The position numbers were made by a program, and so were the translations under genes. Shown piece after piece: positions 12,440-40,833 of a stretch of DNA of 42,915 bases. Within the stretch, counting starts at the first letter, position 1. Each line of letters starts with the position of its first letter. The stretch lies in the NCBI GenBank assembly GCA_013816405.1, contig JACDEL010000017.1:1-42915 (forward strand). Direction: 5' to 3'. A model generated the notes under the pieces. It searched no databases and was not told the origin of the DNA. It saw only the letters and a program-made list of their open reading frames with translations. The DNA comes from Chloroflexota bacterium. Lineage in GTDB: Bacteria > Chloroflexota > Limnocylindria > QHBO01.

Positions 12440-12744
12440 TGTTGGGTGGGTAGGATCGGCTGTACGAAGGCTTGCCGGGACTCCTCGACCCAGTGAGCGG
12501 GATCGGGATCGAGGGCCGCCCGTTCGGGTGATGCGTAGTACGCGTCGTTGAGCGCCTCCCCCTCGTGCTCGGGGGCGTCGTGCGCCAGGATCCAGACGAA
12601 TCGGCTTTCGGAGAGGACCGTCCACGCGCCCTCGATCCGGAAGCCGAAGCGCTCCCGCAGAGGCACCACGCCCTTCAGCCAGGCTGCCACGAACTCCTCC
12701 AGGTGCCCCTCCGCGATCACGTAGTCACGCAGCTCGGCGGTCAC
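12436..12744 (-). CDS. NIPSNAP-family protein
   Basis: 102 residues, one dimeric alpha-beta barrel (ferredoxin-like) domain. AELRDYVIAEGHLEEFVAAW and PLRERFGFRIEGAW match the NIPSNAP pattern of a first strand with the R-x-Y motif, followed by SRFVWILAHD and a helix with YYASPERAAL. Function in bacteria is poorly defined. GTG at 12744 overlaps the ligA stop (GTGA), and its own stop overlaps the MFS start (TTGA), so it is coupled on both sides. Confidence 0.82.
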   Translation of the reverse strand: MTAELRDYVIAEGHLEEFVAAWLKGVVPLRERFGFRIEGAWTVLSESRFVWILAHDAPEHEGEALNDAYYASPERAALDPDPAHWVEESRQAFVQPILPTQH

Positions 12745-14819
12745 GCTCCACCGCCATCCAGCAGCCGGCGGAATGCCTCCTCGTCGAGCACCGGCACGCC
12801 CAGCTTCTCCGCCCTGCCGAGCTTGCTGCCCGCCTTCTCGCCGACCACGAGGTAGTCGGTCTTGGCGCTCACCGAGCCTCCGGCATGCCCGCCTGCACTA
12901 CGGATCGCGTCCTCCGCCCCTTCGCGGCTGAAGCCGGCCAGGGTGCCGGTGACCACCAGCGTCTTTCCGGCAAGCGGTCCCTCGCTGGCCTCGACCGTCG
13001 CCCCGGGCTCGGGAGCCTCCGCGACCACGCCCGCGTCGAGCAGGTGCTGCAGCGTGGCGCGCGTGTGCTCATCGGCGAAGTAGCCGGCAATGCCCTCTGC
13101 CACCACCTTGCCGATCCCGAAGACGGCGGTCAGCTCCTCGGCCGAGGCGTCGCACAGGCGGTCAGCCACCCGTCGCGTCCACGCGGCTTCGTCTTCGCCA
13201 TCGAGACGCGTGGTCTCTCGCGTCAGCCAGTTGCCCAAGTCGATCGCCGTCTGCTCCCCTACGTGCCGGATGCCGAGCGAGTTGAGGATGCGCGCCAGCG
13301 GGCGGCGCCTAGCGCCCTGGATCGCGGCGAACAGGTTCTCGGCGCTCTTGCGGGCATATCGGTCCAGTCCCTCGAACGTCTCGACTTCGAGCCGGAAGAT
13401 GTCGGCCGGCTCGCGCAGGAGCTCGCGCTCCGCGAGCTGGTTGACGACGGCGTAGCCCGCTCCCTCGATGTCCATTCCGCCGCGACCGGTGAAATGCAGC
13501 AGCCCCCCGATGCGCTGCGCCGGGCACCACGGGTTCGGGCAGCGCCAGACGACCTCGCCCTCCTCACGGACCGCCGCCGTCCCGCACACGGGGCAGGCAG
13601 ATGGCATCTCCCAGACCGTCTCCGAGCCGTCGCGCGCGTCGAGCACGGCGCTCACCACCTCGGGGATCACGTCACCCGCTCGCTGCAGCACGACGGTGTC
13701 GCCCACCCGCAGATCCTTGCGACGGATCTCGTCGATGTTGTGGAGCGTGGCATTGCGCACGGTGGTGCCGCCCACGACGATCGGGGTCACGTGCGCGACA
13801 GGGGTCAGCGCTCCGGTCCGCCCGACGTAGACCTCGATCTCCTCGAGCTTCGTCGTCACCTGTTGAGCGGGGAACTTGTACGCGGTCGCCCAACGCGGGG
13901 CGCGCGAGACGAAGCCCAGCGTCTGCTCCTGCTCGACGCTGTCGACCTTGATCACGATCCCATCGGTCTCGTAGTCCAGGTCCTTGCGGGCCTCCGCCCA
14001 CTCCTCGACGTACTCGATCACGGCGTCGACGCCTTCCACCCGCCGGGCATGCGGGTTGACGGGGAAGCCAAGCTCGCGCATCAGCTTCAGCGACTCCGAG
14101 TGACTGGCAAGACCAGGAACGCCAACCACCTGGTAGGTCCAGACCGATAGCCTTCTACCCGCGGTGACTGCCGGGGCCTTCTGGCGCACCGTGCCGGCGG
14201 CAGTGTTGCGGGCGTTGGCATACAACGGCTTTCCCTCCCGCTCGAGCTGCTCGTTCAGCGCTACGAACGCACCGCGCGGCATGAAGACCTCGCCGCGCAC
14301 CTCCAGCGTCTCGCCGGGCGGGTCGTCGCGCAGGCGCAGGGGTATGGCACGCACCGTTCGCAGGTTTGGCGTGACGTCCTCGCCGGTGCTCCCGTCGCCG
14401 CGGGTGGCGCCACGGACGAACGAACGCCCGTCGTAGCGCAGGCTGATCGCCAGCCCGTCGATCTTCAGCTCGCAGACGTAGACGACTGCCGGGTCGTCCG
14501 CGCCAAGGCCCAGTCCCTTCCGAACGCGGGCGTCGAACTCGCGCAGCTCGTCGTGCCCGAAGGCGTTGCCGAGCGAGAGCATCGGGAACTCGTGGCGAAC
14601 CTCGGCAAAGAGGGTCGAGGGCGCGGCACCAACCCGTTGTGTCGGCGAGTCGGGCGATGCCAGCTCGGGGTGCGCGGCCTCAAGCTCGGTCAGCTCCCGC
14701 AGCATGCGGTCGTAGGCAGCGTCCTCGAGGGTCGGGTCGTCCAGGACGTAGTAGCGGTAGTTCGCGTCGTCGAGCGCGGCGCGCAGCTCTGCGACCCGCG
14801 CGGCGGGGTCAGTCGGCAT
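12741..14819 (-). CDS. ligA: NAD+-dependent DNA ligase LigA
   Basis: 692 residues, full length. Seals nicks using NAD+. Domains in order: Ia domain (YYVLDDPTLEDAAYDRMLREL), nucleotidyltransferase with adenylated Lys119 in CELKIDG and YANARNTAAGTVRQ, OB fold (VGRTGALTPVAHVTP), four-cysteine zinc finger (CPVCG ... CPNPWCPAQ), helix-hairpin-helix repeats, and a C-terminal BRCT domain (LAGKTLVVTGTLAGFSREGAE). ATG at 14819 lies 11 nt inside the end of the DinB-like gene. A frame extension to 15446 overlaps that gene entirely and is spurious. Coupled to the NIPSNAP gene by GTGA. Confidence 0.97.
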   Translation of the reverse strand: MPTDPAARVAELRAALDDANYRYYVLDDPTLEDAAYDRMLRELTELEAAHPELASPDSPTQRVGAAPSTLFAEVRHEFPMLSLGNAFGHDELREFDARVRKGLGLGADDPAVVYVCELKIDGLAISLRYDGRSFVRGATRGDGSTGEDVTPNLRTVRAIPLRLRDDPPGETLEVRGEVFMPRGAFVALNEQLEREGKPLYANARNTAAGTVRQKAPAVTAGRRLSVWTYQVVGVPGLASHSESLKLMRELGFPVNPHARRVEGVDAVIEYVEEWAEARKDLDYETDGIVIKVDSVEQEQTLGFVSRAPRWATAYKFPAQQVTTKLEEIEVYVGRTGALTPVAHVTPIVVGGTTVRNATLHNIDEIRRKDLRVGDTVVLQRAGDVIPEVVSAVLDARDGSETVWEMPSACPVCGTAAVREEGEVVWRCPNPWCPAQRIGGLLHFTGRGGMDIEGAGYAVVNQLAERELLREPADIFRLEVETFEGLDRYARKSAENLFAAIQGARRRPLARILNSLGIRHVGEQTAIDLGNWLTRETTRLDGEDEAAWTRRVADRLCDASAEELTAVFGIGKVVAEGIAGYFADEHTRATLQHLLDAGVVAEAPEPGATVEASEGPLAGKTLVVTGTLAGFSREGAEDAIRSAGGHAGGSVSAKTDYLVVGEKAGSKLGRAEKLGVPVLDEEAFRRLLDGGGA

Positions 14820-15345
14820 CGGCCTCGTCGGGAGCGGCATCTTCGGCGTCGGCCTCGTCGGGGGCCTCCTTGTCGTCGAACCAGGCACGAACGTCGAGCG
14901 TGTGCTCACGGTAGTGTCCGGCTCCGTCGAAGCCGACGATCTCCTCGAGCGAGTCGCCATCTGCATCCCGATCCGGGAGCAACTCCGGGTCAACCGCGGA
15001 GAGACGCGCCACGAAGGCCTCGTAGGCGGCCTGCTCGCGACTTGAGACGGTCGCGTAGGCCGTGTCGCGCGCCACGCGCGCCACGACCTCGTTGCGCTCG
15101 TCGACCGATATGTCGTCGCGGCCGAACTCGGACAGCTCCCCCTGCTCGGCGCGATGCAGCGACTCGGCCGCGTGCCCGGCCCAGTAGCCGACGTGCGCCA
15201 GCAGGTCACGTGCCGACCAATCGCCCACCAGCCCAGGCGTGGTCCGCAGGGTGGGGTCGATGTCCGCCACAGCGGCGAGGAACTCGTCGCGTGCGGTGGC
15301 AAGGTCGTCGAGCAGCTCCTGGACGTGTGGATCGGGTTCGGCCAT
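14809..15345 (-). CDS. DinB-like / maleylpyruvate isomerase N-terminal domain protein
   Basis: 178 residues. Four-helix bundle of the DinB_2/MDMPI type. Metal-binding histidines are suggested by LLAHVGYWAGH (about residues 50-60) and GHYREHTLDVRAWF near the end; WSARDLLAHV is the family signature. Members bind a divalent metal and often use thiol cofactors; the reaction here is unknown. The C-terminus is a short acidic direct repeat (APDEADA twice), and the ligA start codon lies within its last codons. ATG at 15345 follows TAGAAT by 7 nt. First gene of the ligA operon. Confidence 0.82.
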   Translation of the reverse strand: MAEPDPHVQELLDDLATARDEFLAAVADIDPTLRTTPGLVGDWSARDLLAHVGYWAGHAAESLHRAEQGELSEFGRDDISVDERNEVVARVARDTAYATVSSREQAAYEAFVARLSAVDPELLPDRDADGDSLEEIVGFDGAGHYREHTLDVRAWFDDKEAPDEADAEDAAPDEADAD

Positions 15346-15352
15346 GCGGCGG

Positions 15353-15358
15353 ATTCTA
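15353..15358 (-). promoter_or_regulatory. -10 box of DinB-ligA operon (predicted leaderless)
   Basis: TAGAAT, 7 nt (CCGCCGC) before the ATG at 15345. A TTGACA at the end of repeat copy 4 lies 27 nt further upstream, too far for an ordinary 17-nt spacer. Confidence 0.6.
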
Positions 15359-15385
15359 GTGGTCGGTGTCGGGGGGCGCCGCCTG

Positions 15386-15454
15386 TGTCAAGCCTGTTCG
15401 TGCTACACGAATGCTCGACTGCACGGCTGCACGGCTGCACGAGCACTCCGACGC
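15386..15454 (-). repeat. GTGCA palindromic intergenic repeat, copy 4
   Basis: Inverted relative to copies 1-3. Read on the minus strand it starts GCGTCGGAGTGCTC, has three GTGCAGNCG-like units in tandem, then the palindrome TTCGTG-TAG-CACGAA (6-bp arms), and ends GCTTGACA. It lies between pcrA and the DinB-ligA operon, both on the minus strand. It is the most diverged copy but keeps both ends. Confidence 0.68.
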
Positions 15455-20824: not shown

Positions 20825-21055
20825 ATGCATCACCTGGTCGCCTGCATCTTCTGCGGTGGGATGGATCCCAATGCCGACAGCCTGCTGCTGCAGGCCGCCA
20901 TCGCCGGCGGCATCAGCGCCCCGTGGATGCTCCGCAGCAAGCTGCTGGCGCTGGTCAGCCGGCTCCGCGGCCGCCCCGCGGCGGCCGACCTCAATGACGC
21001 CGCCTGCCCGCTCCCCTATCCCGTCGACGCGGAGACGCCGACCAGCAAGCGGTAG
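20825..21055 (+). CDS. Small uncharacterised protein (76 aa), divergent from groESL
   Basis: Not recognised. Starts MHHLVACIFCGGMDPNADSL; a Cys-x2-Cys (CIFC) and a glycine-rich hydrophobic stretch (LLLQAAIAGGISAPWML) are followed by a basic helix (SKLLALVSRLRGR) and a polar tail. Nearly every third codon position is G or C, which supports real coding despite the small size. It could be membrane-associated or metal-binding; neither is proven. ATG at 20825 is chosen because a 17-nt-spaced promoter ends 6 nt before it. Its last 40 bp overlap the convergent TatD gene. Confidence 0.6.
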   Translation: MHHLVACIFCGGMDPNADSLLLQAAIAGGISAPWMLRSKLLALVSRLRGRPAAADLNDAACPLPYPVDAETPTSKR

Positions 21056-21837
21056 GCGGCCGCCACACCCGAGGCGATGGCGTCCGGCGATGTCCCGCGC
21101 AATCGGGCCAGCTCTGCCGCCACCCGCAACGCCGTGGTCGGCTCATTGCGCTGGTCGCCGCCTCCCGGCGCGAGCCACGGCGAATCCGTCTCGACCAGGA
21201 AGCTCCCTCCCGGGAGAGCCGCTGCCGCGGCGCGCGGGCCTCGGGCGGAGGAGAACGTGACCGGCAGCGCGAAACTGATGAGGTAGCCACCCGCTGCCAG
21301 GTCCTGAGCCAGGGTCGCGTCGCCAGAGAAGCAGTGCAGCACGCCGCGCAGGGTCCCCCGGCCGGGACCCTTCCAGGCCAGGAGCGCGGTTCGCACCTCG
21401 TCGTGCGCGTCGCGGCTGTGGATCAGTACCGGCTTGCGGACCGAGGCCGCCATCGCCAGCTGACGCTCGAACGCCGCCCGCTGGGCCTCCCGCGACGACA
21501 GGTCGCGATGGAAGTCGAGCCCGATCTCCCCGACCGCCACCACCCGGGGGTCGGCAGCGAGGACGGCCAGCTCATCCCACTCGGCCGGCGTGGGAGCGGC
21601 TGAGAAGTGCGGATGCACACCCACCGCCGCGTCGATCAGCTCGGGGTGCGCCTCGGCCAGCGCGACCGCTGCCTGCGACGAGGTGAGGTCGTAGCCGGGG
21701 GCCAGGATGCGGACGATTCCCGCCTCCACGGCCCGCCCGATGACAGCCTCGCGATCGGCGTCGAAGGCGGCGTCCTGCAAGTGACAGTGCGAGTCGACCA
21801 GCCCGGCGAGGCGTGCCGGAGCGCGGTGGCGGCTCAG
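21016..21837 (-). CDS. TatD-family metal-dependent DNase, predicted CTG start
   Basis: 273 residues. TIM-barrel hydrolase acting on DNA 3' ends. Metal ligands visible: VDSHCHL (His17, His19), VGEIGLDFHRD (Glu), VLIHSRDA (His), LRGVLHCFSGD (His) and the ETDSPWLAP Asp. The first TTG in frame (21780) lies after the essential H-x-H. Between it and the in-frame TGA upstream (inside metG) there is no ATG, GTG or TTG. CTG at 21837 overlaps the metG stop as CTGA and gives an N-terminus of normal length, so it is taken as the start; CTG two codons before VDSH is the only other choice. Often encoded after metG, as here. Confidence 0.9.
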   Translation of the reverse strand: MSRHRAPARLAGLVDSHCHLQDAAFDADREAVIGRAVEAGIVRILAPGYDLTSSQAAVALAEAHPELIDAAVGVHPHFSAAPTPAEWDELAVLAADPRVVAVGEIGLDFHRDLSSREAQRAAFERQLAMAASVRKPVLIHSRDAHDEVRTALLAWKGPGRGTLRGVLHCFSGDATLAQDLAAGGYLISFALPVTFSSARGPRAAAAALPGGSFLVETDSPWLAPGGGDQRNEPTTALRVAAELARLRGTSPDAIASGVAAAYRLLVGVSASTG

Positions 21838-23429
21838 GGAACGCCACCGGCCGGAGGCGCTTCGCCCTCGGACAGCTCGACGCGCGGGAAGAGCGGCTGC
21901 GCGTCACCCGTCTGCCATCCCTCGGGCACCGAGCCCCAGGCCAGCAGCCGCTCCAGGCCTGGGCCGCCGGCCCCGCGGTCGTCGTACGGAACGCCCACCC
22001 CCAGCTGGGTGTGTAGCTCCGCGGCGGCGGCAGGGGTGAAGGGGGCCATCAGGTGCCCGAGGATGCGGCAGGTCTCGGCCATGGTCGCGAGGATTGCGCC
22101 GACCCGCGCCGCGTCCCCCTCCTTGTCTCGTACCCACGGCGCCTGTGACTCGGCGTAGCCGTTGGCGGCCGAGGTCAGGTCCATGACCGCCCCCAGCGCC
22201 TCGTCGAGGTGCAGGCGGGCCATTGCCGCGTGGTACGCCTCGACCGCCGACGCCGCGGCGGCCTGCAGCTCCCGGTCGGCCGGGGCATCGGCCACTGACA
22301 CCGACGGGAGCGACCGATCCAGGTAACGCGCGCTCATGCTGACCGTGCGGTTGACGAGGTTGCCGAGGTCGTTGGCGAGCTCGGCGTTGTAGCGGCGCAC
22401 GAGGCTCTCGGCCGTCACGTCACCGTCGCGGTCGAACGGGATCTCCCGCAGGACCACGTAGCGCACCCCGTCGACCCCAAACAGCGCGGCCGCGACCTCC
22501 GGATCGATGATGTTCCCACGCGTCTTCGACATGCGCTCGCCCTTCATCTGCATGAATCCATGGGCGAAGATGCTCTCGGGCAGCGGCAGCCCCGCACTCA
22601 TCAGCATCGCCGGCCAGTAGAGGCAATGGAAGCGGGTGATGTTCTTGCCGATGACGTGGAGGTCGGCGGGCCACCAGAGCTCGAACGAGCCGGGGTCATC
22701 GGGGAAGCCGGCACCGGTCAGGTAGTTGGTGAGGGCGTCGAACCAGACGTAGATGCGGTGTGTCGAGTCGTCGGGGAATGGGATCCCCCAGGTCCCGCCT
22801 GCGCGGCTGATCGAGAAGTCGGTGACCCCGTCGTTCAGCCAGCCGAGCACCTCGTTGCGGAAATGCTCGGGCTCGCAGAAGGACGGGTGCTCGCGGTACA
22901 GCTGCTCGAGCGCGCCCTGGTAGCGCGACAGGCGGAAGAAGTAGTTCTCCTCCTCCAGCCATTCGAGCTCCAGCGTGGGGTGGTCCGGACAACGACCGTC
23001 GACGATCTGGCTATCGGTCTTGAACTCGTTGTCGCCCGGGCAGAACCAGCCCGCGTAGGTTCCCTTGTAGATGTCGCCGGTTGCGAGCGCGCGACGGACC
23101 ATCTCGATGGAGGCCCGGGCGTGATCCGGGTCCGTGGTGCGAATGAATCGGTCGTAGCTGATCTCGAACCGATCGAACCCCGCCCGCCAGCTGGCGGCCC
23201 ACTCGTCCACCAGAGCTCGCGGCTCGACGCCGCGCTCCCGCGCCTGTCGCTCGAGGTTGGCCGAGTGCTCGTCCATCCCGGTCAGGAAGCGGACGTCTTT
23301 GCCCAGCAGCCGCTGGTAGCGCGCGACGGCGTCCGCCCCGATCGCCTCGAACAGCGAGTGCAGCGCCGGCCCGGCGCTCGGGTAGAAGATGGCCGTGGTG
23401 AGGTAGTAGCGATCCGCCAACGGGCTCAG
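21834..23429 (-). CDS. metG: Methionyl-tRNA synthetase, HIGH motif not conserved, predicted CTG start
   Basis: 531 residues. Class Ia aaRS charging tRNA(Met). N-terminal ADRYYLTTAIFYPS, ARYQRLLGKDVRFLTGMDEHS, the zinc-knuckle Cys (WFCPGD, GRCPDH), ENYFFRLSRYQGALE, YVWFDALTNYLTG, GKNITRFHCLYWPAML, KMSKS-type ERMSKTRGN (299-303) and a helical anticodon-binding domain are all present. The HIGH signature, expected after YPS, reads PALHS (residues 21-25): both catalytic histidine positions are Ala and Ser. No C-terminal dimerisation domain. No ATG/GTG lies between the upstream stop and ADRYY; CTG at 23429 overlaps that stop as CTGA (TTG three codons later is the alternative). Confidence 0.9.
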   Translation of the reverse strand: MSPLADRYYLTTAIFYPSAGPALHSLFEAIGADAVARYQRLLGKDVRFLTGMDEHSANLERQARERGVEPRALVDEWAASWRAGFDRFEISYDRFIRTTDPDHARASIEMVRRALATGDIYKGTYAGWFCPGDNEFKTDSQIVDGRCPDHPTLELEWLEEENYFFRLSRYQGALEQLYREHPSFCEPEHFRNEVLGWLNDGVTDFSISRAGGTWGIPFPDDSTHRIYVWFDALTNYLTGAGFPDDPGSFELWWPADLHVIGKNITRFHCLYWPAMLMSAGLPLPESIFAHGFMQMKGERMSKTRGNIIDPEVAAALFGVDGVRYVVLREIPFDRDGDVTAESLVRRYNAELANDLGNLVNRTVSMSARYLDRSLPSVSVADAPADRELQAAAASAVEAYHAAMARLHLDEALGAVMDLTSAANGYAESQAPWVRDKEGDAARVGAILATMAETCRILGHLMAPFTPAAAAELHTQLGVGVPYDDRGAGGPGLERLLAWGSVPEGWQTGDAQPLFPRVELSEGEAPPAGGVP

Positions 23430-24172
23430 TGCTCCCTTCCCTTGGGCCAGTACAGCTCCTTTCGGACCTGCTCCGGCGGGAAGCCGCGCGCCGCCGCCAT
23501 CGCCTCGACCGCCTCGATCATGTCCGGGTTGCCGCACAGGTAGATGGTGGTGTTCTCAGGCGTGAGCCGATGCTCCTCGAGCTGACCCTCCACGATCGCC
23601 TCGACCCGGCCGGTCAGCCCCGTCCAGTCCGGGCAGTTCTGGGGGCGCGACACGGTCCCCGCGTACCTCACCGGGAAGCTCCCCGAAGCGACGAGCGCCT
23701 CCAGCTGGCTGCGCCAGGCCAGGTCGAAGTCGTGGCTCACACCGTGGAGCAGCACCAGGTCGCGCGTCTGTCTTCGGTCACGCAGTGTCTCGATCATGCT
23801 CATGAACGGGGCGAGTCCCGTGCCACTGGCGACGAGCAGGCCCGTTCGGTCATCGTCCTGCAGGACGAAGCGGCCCTTTGCGCCCTTGATGTTGATCGGG
23901 TCCCCCACCCGCCGGTCCCACAGGAGCGGTGTGAACTCGCCACCCTCCACCAGCCGGATGAAGAACTCGTACTCATCCAGGCGATCGGCGGACGAGGAGA
24001 TCGACATCGGCCGCTGGACCAGCTTGTCGGGACCCATGAGGCCCAGGGTTGCGTATTGGCCCGGGTTGAAGGGAAATGGGTTCTGGAGCGCCTGCACACC
24101 CACGATCGCCAGCCCCTCGGCGATCTCCTCCCAGCGGCTCAGCAGCCCGGTATACGGGTAGTCGGTGCTCAT
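23426..24172 (-). CDS. FAD/NAD(P)-binding oxidoreductase (ferredoxin-NADP+ reductase type)
   Basis: 248 residues. N-terminal FAD-binding barrel with PFPFNPGQYATLGL and the flavin motif QRPMSISSS. The C-terminal nucleotide-binding domain has GLLVASGTGLAPFMSMI, VLLHGVSHDFDLAW and the late motif IYLCGNPDMIEAV. It moves electrons between NAD(P)H and a ferredoxin/flavodoxin-like partner; partner not visible here. ATG at 24172 follows a weak GATGCT box by 6 nt. It overlaps metG as CTGA. Sits between the YdeI-like remnant and metG in one minus-strand cluster. Confidence 0.9.
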   Translation of the reverse strand: MSTDYPYTGLLSRWEEIAEGLAIVGVQALQNPFPFNPGQYATLGLMGPDKLVQRPMSISSSADRLDEYEFFIRLVEGGEFTPLLWDRRVGDPINIKGAKGRFVLQDDDRTGLLVASGTGLAPFMSMIETLRDRRQTRDLVLLHGVSHDFDLAWRSQLEALVASGSFPVRYAGTVSRPQNCPDWTGLTGRVEAIVEGQLEEHRLTPENTTIYLCGNPDMIEAVEAMAAARGFPPEQVRKELYWPKGREH

Positions 24173-37813: not shown

Positions 37814-39493
37814 CTACCCCTTTCCCGCCGCCTGGGGTCGATCAACAAGCTCCTGATGGACCGATGGGGCGGTCGACGCGGTGACGAAGTCGTGCTTCAG
37901 ATCGGGCCGGCGCGCCGCGGCTGCCTCGTCGAGGCGGCCGACCGGGGTGGTGCGGGGCGCCTGCTTGAGCTCATCGGGGGCGGTCTCGGCCAGCGACGCG
38001 ATGCCATGCATGATCTCGACAAAGCTGTCCAGCGTCTCGAGCGACTCGGTCTCGGTCGGCTCGATCATGAGCGCCTCCTCCACGATCAGGGGGAAGTAGA
38101 TCGTCGGCGGGTGGATGCGGTGGTCGAGGATCGCCTTGGCGATGTCCAGCGTGGTGACGCCGTGCTGCCGCTTCTGGCGCCGCCCTGAGAAGACCACCTC
38201 GTGCTTGCAGATGCGGTCGTAGGGCAGGTCGAAGGCATCGGCCAGTCGGACGCGCAGGTAGTTGGCTGCCAGCACCGCGTCGTCGCTCACCTCGCGCAGC
38301 CCGTCGCCGCCATTGCTCCGGATATAGGTATACGCGCGCACGAACATGCCGAAGTTGCCGGTGAAGGCGCGCACCTTGCCGATGGTGGTCGGCCTCGCCC
38401 CGGGCTCCTCCAGCGCGAAGCGGGCTGCCGGCGTGGGGCGCCCGGACCAGGCGTTGCTGCGTACCTCGTCTGGGTCACCGACGGCGAGCACTGGCAGCGG
38501 CGACGGCAGGAACGCCGCCAGTCTCTCGCTCACGCCGACCGGCCCCGCCCCAGGGCCTCCCCCGCCGTGCGGGGTCGAGAAGGTCTTGTGCAGGTTGAAG
38601 TGCATCACGTCGAAGCCCGCCTCGCCGGGTCGGAAGCGGCCGAGGATCGCGTTCAGGTTGGCTCCATCCATGTAGGCGATGGCGCCCGCCTCCTTGACGG
38701 CTGCCACAACCTGGTCGATCTGGTCCTCGAAGATGCCCAGAGTGGACGGATTGGTGATCATCAGGGCGGCGGTGTCCAGGCCCAGCGCCGCACGCAGCGC
38801 GTCGAGGTCGATCCCGCCGCGCGGGTTGGACGGGATCGTGACGGCCGTGTAGCCGACCATTGTTGCGGTCGCCGGGTTGGTACCGTGCGAGCTGTCGGGG
38901 ACGAGGACCTTTGTGCGCTGCTCGCCCTCCCCACGAGATCGATGGTAGGCGCGCGTCATCAGGAGCCCGGTCAGTTCGCCGTGGGCGCCGGCCGCCGGCT
39001 GCAGGCTGATCGCGGCAAAGCCGCTGAGCTCCTTGAGGAGCTCAGCCAGCAGCCACTCGAGCTCCAGGCTGCCCTGGGCCAGCGGATCGGGATCGAGGGG
39101 GTGCGAATCGGCAAGTCCGGGGAGGCGGGCCGCCCATTCGTTGACCTTGGGGTTGTACTTCATGGTGCAGGACCCGAGCGGATAGAAGCCCAGCTCGATG
39201 GCGTGGTTCAGGTGGCTGAGCCGATTGAAGTGGCGCAGCAGGTCGAGCTCGGCGACCTCCGGCAGGCGCGGGGCCGTCCTCCGGACCGCCGTCTCGGGGA
39301 TCTGGGGCTGATCGGCCGCGGCGGCCCGCGCAGCACTGGACGGGGACGGGTAGCGGACTGCGCGGCGGCCCGGCCGCGAGGAGTCGAAGATGAGCGGCTC
39401 GATGATCGTCAGCTGATCCCCCGCCTTGGGCGAGGCAAAGGCCGCGCCGCGACCCGACGCGTCGCCGGTTGGCGGCCGCTCGAGCACGCTCAT
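37814..39493 (-). CDS. gcvPB: Glycine dehydrogenase (decarboxylating) subunit 2
   Basis: 559 residues. PLP-bearing half of two-subunit glycine decarboxylase (P protein). ELGFYPLGSCTMKYNPKVNEW, LQPAAGAHGELTGLL, PDSSHGTNPATATMVGY and the PLP lysine in FNLHKTFSTPHGGGGPG are all present. Glycine is decarboxylated and the aminomethyl group passes to the GcvH lipoyl arm. The N-terminus (about 25 residues) and the C-terminus (TASTAPSVHQELVDRP) extend past the usual length. ATG at 39493 overlaps gcvPA as ATGA. Confidence 0.97.
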   Translation of the reverse strand: MSVLERPPTGDASGRGAAFASPKAGDQLTIIEPLIFDSSRPGRRAVRYPSPSSAARAAAADQPQIPETAVRRTAPRLPEVAELDLLRHFNRLSHLNHAIELGFYPLGSCTMKYNPKVNEWAARLPGLADSHPLDPDPLAQGSLELEWLLAELLKELSGFAAISLQPAAGAHGELTGLLMTRAYHRSRGEGEQRTKVLVPDSSHGTNPATATMVGYTAVTIPSNPRGGIDLDALRAALGLDTAALMITNPSTLGIFEDQIDQVVAAVKEAGAIAYMDGANLNAILGRFRPGEAGFDVMHFNLHKTFSTPHGGGGPGAGPVGVSERLAAFLPSPLPVLAVGDPDEVRSNAWSGRPTPAARFALEEPGARPTTIGKVRAFTGNFGMFVRAYTYIRSNGGDGLREVSDDAVLAANYLRVRLADAFDLPYDRICKHEVVFSGRRQKRQHGVTTLDIAKAILDHRIHPPTIYFPLIVEEALMIEPTETESLETLDSFVEIMHGIASLAETAPDELKQAPRTTPVGRLDEAAAARRPDLKHDFVTASTAPSVHQELVDRPQAAGKG

Positions 39494-40833
39494 CGGGTCG
39501 ATTCCAGGCCCGCGATCAGGGCCTCGATATCGGCATCGGTGGTCAGCTCGGTGGCCGCAAGCAGCAGCGTGTCGGCAAGCTGGGGGTAGTCGGACCCGAG
39601 TGGATAGCCCGCCACGATCCCCTGCTCTGCGAGGGCCGCGTGCCGGCCGGTCGCGTCTGGCACACGGATGGCCACCTCGGCGAAGTACGGAGCGCTGAAA
39701 CGCCGCTCACCGAGGCCGGCCGACTCGATCGCCGCCGCCACGTGGCGCGCCTGGGTGGCCGACAGGTCGGCCACCTCCCGGAGCCCCTGGGGGCCAACGG
39801 CCGACAGGTAGGTGGCGGCGGCCAATGCGCAGAGTGCCTGGTTGGTGCAGATATTGCTGGCCGCCTTCTCGCGGCGAATGTGCTGCTCGCGGGCCTGGAG
39901 GGTGAGCACGTAGCCCTTGCGCCCCTGCCCGTCTCGGGTCGCGCCGACCAGCCGGCCGGGCATCTGCCGCACGGACTCCATCCGGGCTGCCATCAGACCA
40001 ACGTATGGCCCGCCGTAGGAGGGCGGGATGCCGAGCGGCTGCCCCTCGGCTGCCACGATATCGGCGCCGTAGGAGCCAGGGGCGGCGAGCAGGGCCAGCG
40101 AGGTCGGCTCCACCACCGCCACCATCAGCGCGCCGACCGCGTGGGCCGCGTCTGCCAGCTCCGCCATCGGCTCGATTCCGCCGAACATGTTCGGCTGCTG
40201 GGCGATGAGGCACGCACTGTCGTCGGTCACTGCGACGGCGGCTGCCTCGAGGTCGGTCAGGCCGGTCCTCCCCTCCGACAGGTCTGCGGGCACCTCCACG
40301 ATCTCGACCCCCGGTCCGGCGCAATAGGTGGCGAGCACCCGCCGGACCTGCGGGTTCACCGCCGTTGAGACAGCCACCTGGTGGCGACCGGTCAGTCGGC
40401 AGGCCATCAGCGCCGCCTCGGCCGTGGCGGTCGCACCGTCGTAGTGAGAGGCGGAGGCGACCTCCATCCCGGTCAGCTCGCAGATCAGCGACTGGAACTC
40501 GTAGATGCTCTGCAGGGTCCCCTGGCTGACCTCCGGTTGGTACGGCGTGTAGGAAGTCGAGAATTCGGCGCGTCCGATCACTTCGCTCACCACCGCCGGG
40601 ACCAGGTGGCGGTAGGCGCCCGCACCCAGGAAGCTGACGCGCGGGATCCGGTTCTGCCCGGCCAGGCGCGCCAGCTCGGCGCGGACCTCCTGCTCGGTGA
40701 GTGGCGCGGGCAGGTCGAACCGGGTGGCGCGCACGGCGGCCGGAATGTCGGCGAAGAGGTCGTCGACCGACTCGACCCCGATCGCCGCGAGCATCCGCTC
40801 GCGGTCGGCGGCGGTGTGCGGGGAGTAGGACAT
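39490..40833 (-). CDS. gcvPA: Glycine dehydrogenase (decarboxylating) subunit 1
   Basis: 447 residues. Start YSPHTAADRERMLAAIGV, then SFLGAGAYRHLVPAVV, FSTSYTPYQPEVSQGTLQSIYEFQ, and SHYDGATATAEAALMA, the typical GcvPA order. ASNICTNQALCALAAATYL and GPQGLREVADL follow. It forms the heterotetramer with GcvPB and closes the active site. ATG at 40833 overlaps the gcvH stop by one base (TGATG). Expected stoichiometry with gcvPB follows from the ATGA coupling. Confidence 0.97.
   Translation of the reverse strand: MSYSPHTAADRERMLAAIGVESVDDLFADIPAAVRATRFDLPAPLTEQEVRAELARLAGQNRIPRVSFLGAGAYRHLVPAVVSEVIGRAEFSTSYTPYQPEVSQGTLQSIYEFQSLICELTGMEVASASHYDGATATAEAALMACRLTGRHQVAVSTAVNPQVRRVLATYCAGPGVEIVEVPADLSEGRTGLTDLEAAAVAVTDDSACLIAQQPNMFGGIEPMAELADAAHAVGALMVAVVEPTSLALLAAPGSYGADIVAAEGQPLGIPPSYGGPYVGLMAARMESVRQMPGRLVGATRDGQGRKGYVLTLQAREQHIRREKAASNICTNQALCALAAATYLSAVGPQGLREVADLSATQARHVAAAIESAGLGERRFSAPYFAEVAIRVPDATGRHAALAEQGIVAGYPLGSDYPQLADTLLLAATELTTDADIEALIAGLESTR

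Follow-up and report, generated by a model that had tools for sequence, protein, structure and literature searches.

A swapped HIGH motif in the methionyl-tRNA synthetase of a Chloroflexota class

Introduction

Class I aminoacyl-tRNA synthetases are defined by two signatures, of which the HIGH motif is one; it binds ATP and is highly conserved. The closest described departure from it is that of IleRS2, in which HXGH has become G/AXHH and the third-position His, with its nitrogen where that of the first His would be, takes over the role of the first His (Brkic et al., 2023; PMC10485003). Swapped IleRS2 enzymes stay active, kcat being reduced by up to about tenfold in mutants, and the swap causes mupirocin hyper-resistance, with a Ki up to about a thousandfold higher (PMC10485003). 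In IleRS2 the swap was gained at least twice and has also reverted in nature, and IleRS1 is intolerant of it, the same exchange abolishing activity (PMC10485003). Its authors call the swap exclusive to IleRS2 (PMC10485003).

For canonical MetRS, a study of the Mycobacterium tuberculosis enzyme (PMC6038951) describes adenine N7 as bonded by the first His of the motif, adenine C6 and N1 as touched by the Gly, and the alpha-phosphate as held by the last His; based on these contacts, an exchange of the first and third residues would alter the contacts with both adenine and phosphate. We identified no report of such a swap in MetRS in the open-licence literature, in which the IleRS2 paper was also the only one found on GXHH in a tRNA synthetase. 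Here we describe a metG gene with an exchanged motif, together with its distribution, inferred history and possible meaning. The gene lies on a contig of a Chloroflexota bacterium, and the whole stretch of 42,915 nucleotides that was analyzed is referred to as the window.

The metG gene and its product

The metG gene (Table 1) probably starts with TTG at 23418-23420, five bases beyond the point at which the reductase gene upstream ends, and its stop codon is at 21834-21836. Residue numbers follow the structure model and a 79-row alignment (A1; 45 swapped and 34 canonical MetRS), with this TTG counted as residue 2. Because the swap is family-wide, assignment to MetRS relied on the other parts of the protein. 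The profile score for TIGR00398 (metG) is 437.2 bits, above the curated cut-off of 336.35, and PF09334 matches with 324 bits; the score for the narrower PRK12267 model, 564, is below its cut-off of 598. The best solved relatives by sequence alignment are MetRS. The AlphaFold2 model has a mean pLDDT of 93.2, its closest structural match is M. tuberculosis MetRS 5xet, with Z 45.3 and an rmsd of 1.6 across 497 residues, and all 50 structural matches listed for the model are MetRS. The protein is not an IleRS, being metG by family score in a genome whose IleRS is a separate gene. Judged from this remainder of the protein, the window gene is a predicted housekeeping MetRS.

Table 1. Features of the metG locus, numbered along the window.
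Feature	Position	Strand	Basis
tatD-family nuclease gene, downstream of metG	21016..21780	(-)	PF01026, 208 bits
metG, methionine--tRNA ligase; 528 codons + stop	21834..23420	(-)	ORF, family score, fold
RMSKT, KMSKS equivalent	22521..22535	(-)	frame and alignment
Asn261 in HVIGKN, matching ribose-binding Asp263 of M. tuberculosis MetRS	22641..22643	(-)	alignment; role of Asp263 from PMC6038951
Swapped HIGH motif, P-A-L-H-S	23355..23369	(-)	read in frame and ungapped alignment
CAC, His22, at the third motif position, where canonical MetRS have Gly; proposed stand-in for first His	23358..23360	(-)	analogy with IleRS2 (PMC10485003)
FAD/NAD-binding oxidoreductase (flavin reductase), adjoining metG upstream	23426..24172	(-)	PF00175 and PF00970

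The surroundings of metG are unremarkable, with groES and groEL (from ORF reading) further along past its neighbors. Elsewhere in the window, glycine decarboxylase is encoded as two neighboring genes (37814-40833; Pfam matches), and a DNA ligase ORF (12741-15446) has approximately 215 residues ahead of its first Pfam match, which may mean that the start is wrongly assigned or that the protein is extended at its N terminus.

The motif and the remainder of the active site

On the minus strand the motif is encoded by CCG GCG CTG CAC TCG in one uninterrupted frame, in agreement with the reading of PALHS and the lack of a frameshift in a first-pass annotation of this DNA. Two alignments against solved MetRS chains, both without gaps across the motif, place Ala20 where canonical MetRS have the first His, His22 where they have the Gly and Ser23 where they have the last His, which also bears out the gap-free register proposed earlier, with Ala and Ser at the two His sites. 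Helix 1 of the model begins at residue 21 with its register unshifted; together with the ungapped alignment, this rejects the idea that a HIGH-equivalent lies elsewhere in the chain. The enzyme therefore has ALHS in place of HxGH, with neither His in place and the Gly also replaced. The earlier description of both His as missing was correct for these two sites and incomplete in that the Gly site, position 3, is now occupied by a His. As read from the aligned sequences, the HIGH motif is changed by an exchange of positions 1 and 3 and not by loss.

The enzyme otherwise resembles canonical MetRS (5xet, HVGH) in fold, domain order, KMSKS and most residues that contact Met-AMP: Glu26, Asp51, His288, Gly289 and Phe290, which correspond to Met-AMP contacts of M. 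tuberculosis MetRS, are kept, RMSKT retains Ser299 and Lys300, and WFDAL is present, the latter two motifs being intact as annotated. It differs from 5xet in the exchange of the first His and the Gly. In the window's family (f1), Ser additionally replaces the last His, and Asn replaces Asp263; the Asn occupies the ribose-binding Asp site (HIGKD segment) in all 12 f1 rows examined. The zinc site, first described as intact, retains Cys128, Cys145 and His148, but position 131 is Asp. This position is Cys in 46 of the 79 aligned rows and a gap in 24, and Asp is found in the window MetRS and six other rows.

Distribution in Chloroflexota

A 101-base pattern around the swapped motif matched 139 of 177 genomes of the host's Chloroflexota class, including 47 of the 53 with at least 90% completeness and at most 5% contamination; reversed-pattern controls gave zero matches in the rows listed. 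Within a sample of 400 genomes of the phylum, matches were found for 50 of 55 class members and for one of 345 others (G345). The first-pass annotation had raised an altered active site in this lineage and proposed checking whether the motif is clade-wide; its form P[AP]LHS is that of family f1, and the underlying change is common to most of the class. Other families have PGLHT or PGVHT (f3 and f5), PGLHF (f4), or mostly PGLHH (f2). The survey covered Chloroflexota, and the swap may exist outside this phylum; one scan of viral contigs revealed no relative.

The 38 class genomes without the pattern comprise two whose MetRS is of the same kind and has PHLGH (G052 and G173), nine that encode a distant kind of MetRS, and 27 with no metG or with pieces that lack the motif. 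Eight of the distant enzymes have HLGH (G022, G028, G036, G042, G044, G168, G169 and G171), and in the ninth (G040) the motif is off its contig. In certain f2 relatives (L115-L120 and L263-L265), the swapped metG has given way to a distant MetRS of the HLGH type (30-32% identity where measured). Such replacement suggests that the swapped form could carry a cost, and its occurrence in several f2 genomes argues against a constant strong benefit.

Two motif states and their interconversion

Across 185 readable MetRS loci, only four pairs of residues were seen at positions 1 and 3: His/Gly (101 loci), Gly/His (60), Ala/His (18) and Pro/His (6). Neither two His nor no His was ever observed. These counts include near-duplicates (the same organisms in two collections) and many Bacillales, 30 of the loci were fetched by a pattern that demanded His at position 3 with position 1 free, and the exclusivity applies to Chloroflexota and Bacillota sequences. 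Position 4 is variable even among canonical MetRS, being His in 27 of the 101 rows and Thr in 62 (mostly Bacillales); among the 84 swapped loci it is His in nine, and Ser or Thr in most.

In alignment A1, the third His is present in 45/45 swapped rows, and complete separation of the two states is given by columns 20 and 22 only. Several further columns show a strong but incomplete difference between the swapped and the canonical rows; as candidates for compensating changes, none besides 20 and 22 fully separates the states.

A careful tree of 44 rows, built without the motif columns, requires at least three changes of state (three to four in bootstraps); the minimum is also three in a quick tree of 103 rows. 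Within f2, a clade of G052 and G173 (95/98) lies among swapped relatives, and a reversion to PHLGH in this pair is well supported by the sequence phylogeny. A recombination patch was considered as the origin of the G052 motif, PHLGH, and rejected: both flanks of the motif are closest to swapped relatives, not to outgroups, and thus the change was local. The reverted enzyme of G052 (L130) has KLAKS instead of KMSKS and a long branch. Family f19 and the class cluster together (97/98); within f19, G345 has PALHY, and PHLG[FY] is found in the five remaining rows of this family in the tree. The swap either arose twice, or arose once with an additional loss in f19. Among otherwise invariant columns, the two events examined, G052 and G345, share changes only at columns 20, 22, 82 and 498, and the last two have no obvious place in the active site.

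Comparison with IleRS2 and other synthetases of the same genome

As described for IleRS2 (PMC10485003), the swapped MetRS have motif positions 1 and 3 exchanged and can have Gly or Ala at the first of these; in both synthetases the swap was gained repeatedly and has reverted, and the enzyme kept its housekeeping role. The window enzyme accordingly has the Ala and His expected at positions 1 and 3 of G/AXHH, and departs from it with Ser23 at position 4. As a group, the MetRS differ from IleRS2 in being methionine enzymes with a predicted activity, in also having Pro at position 1, in the predominance of Ser and Thr over His at position 4, and in having no known linked inhibitor, where IleRS2 has mupirocin.

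The IleRS of the window's genome (L210, G000:C70) has GVHH and is itself of the published swapped type; the organism thus has two swapped synthetases. All 30 class IleRS loci are swapped (24 GVHH, 4 GIHH and 2 GVHS), as are 28 of 29 further IleRS loci with a readable motif, 28 of those 29 being outside the class; an IleRS with HIGH is found in G249. The GVHS loci (L205 in G036 and L206 in G028) have lost the fourth His after the swap, as in f1 MetRS. A link between the IleRS and MetRS swaps was considered and rejected, given that GXHH IleRS also occur with canonical MetRS (28/29 loci, including class member G052).

Among other synthetases of this genome, LeuRS has HIGH, the presumed ValRS HVGH, CysRS HIGN, GluRS HIGT and ArgRS TVGN. 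The CysRS, GluRS and ArgRS variants differ from the canonical motif at position 4, and that of ArgRS also at position 1; all keep Gly at position 3, unlike the swapped MetRS. Two CysRS-like genes were identified (G000:C42, L259; G000:C69, L260), with HIGN and KMARS in one and HLGH and KMSKS in the other.

Proposed mechanism and alternative explanations

We consider it likely that the window gene encodes an active housekeeping MetRS in which a HIGH swap evolved independently and the third His does the work of the first. By analogy with IleRS2, the His at position 3 would reach the site of the first His, bind ATP and stabilize the transition state, and the small residue at position 1 would leave space for it. 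A small shift of the helix tip would make room for adenine, as in IleRS2 (PMC10485003), and the fourth His, variable across MetRS, would be represented by Ser in f1. We infer this catalytic take-over from the exclusivity, repeated change and reversion that MetRS shares with IleRS2. A point against this reading is the loss of activity in IleRS1 with the same swap (same source), so tolerance of the swap depends on enzyme architecture and is a prediction for MetRS.

A distinctly less likely reading is that the ATP site has been re-engineered more broadly, with other residues or KMSKS alone replacing the first His and the third His having a structural role. The Ser at position 4 and the invariant Asn for the ribose-binding Asp in f1, the Asp at zinc-ligand position 131, and the columns that differ strongly between swapped and canonical rows speak for such a reading, but the third His is constant across the swapped rows of A1, and of the four changed columns shared by the G052 and G345 events two are the motif positions themselves.

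It is highly improbable that the gene is a paralog or decaying copy, with a canonical metG elsewhere charging the tRNA, as the first-pass annotation had offered as its other option. A protein search (E up to 10) and TIGR00398 revealed no second metG in the window's genome, only weak hits to other proteins; this assembly is 95% complete in 102 contigs, such that one gene, and in principle a second copy, could be absent from it. The near-complete genome of a relative (G002; 99% complete, 7 contigs) also has a single metG, which already contradicts this reading, and among 61 genomes searched, of which 54 matched, none had clear evidence of two, the double matches being pieces of one gene or contig ends. 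The metG values of dN/dS, 0.08 to 0.26 across six pairs, indicate purifying selection, and the family score exceeds the TIGR00398 cut-off. The probability of an alignment, frameshift or sequencing artefact is negligible, this having been refuted by the ungapped alignment, the uninterrupted frame and the recurrence of the pattern across the class. Overall, the earlier interpretation is partly supported: the data favor an altered active site and do not support a second enzyme.

Implications

A class-wide swap in MetRS, with gains and a reversion, indicates that a second synthetase tolerates the exchange of these motif positions, and the natural pairs of swapped and canonical sister enzymes (G052 and G173 versus their relatives, and G345 versus its family) provide systems for the study of active-site switching. 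The finding also suggests a search for MetRS inhibitors that bind the ATP pocket. A further possibility, which we regard as rather doubtful and which draws on the IleRS2 analogy, is that the swap confers resistance, the His at position 3 keeping out a natural inhibitor that occupies the pocket for ATP and adenine in MetRS. If this were true, the class would mark the existence of an undescribed natural product that targets MetRS, and class Ia synthetases in general could become resistant by swapping the motif.
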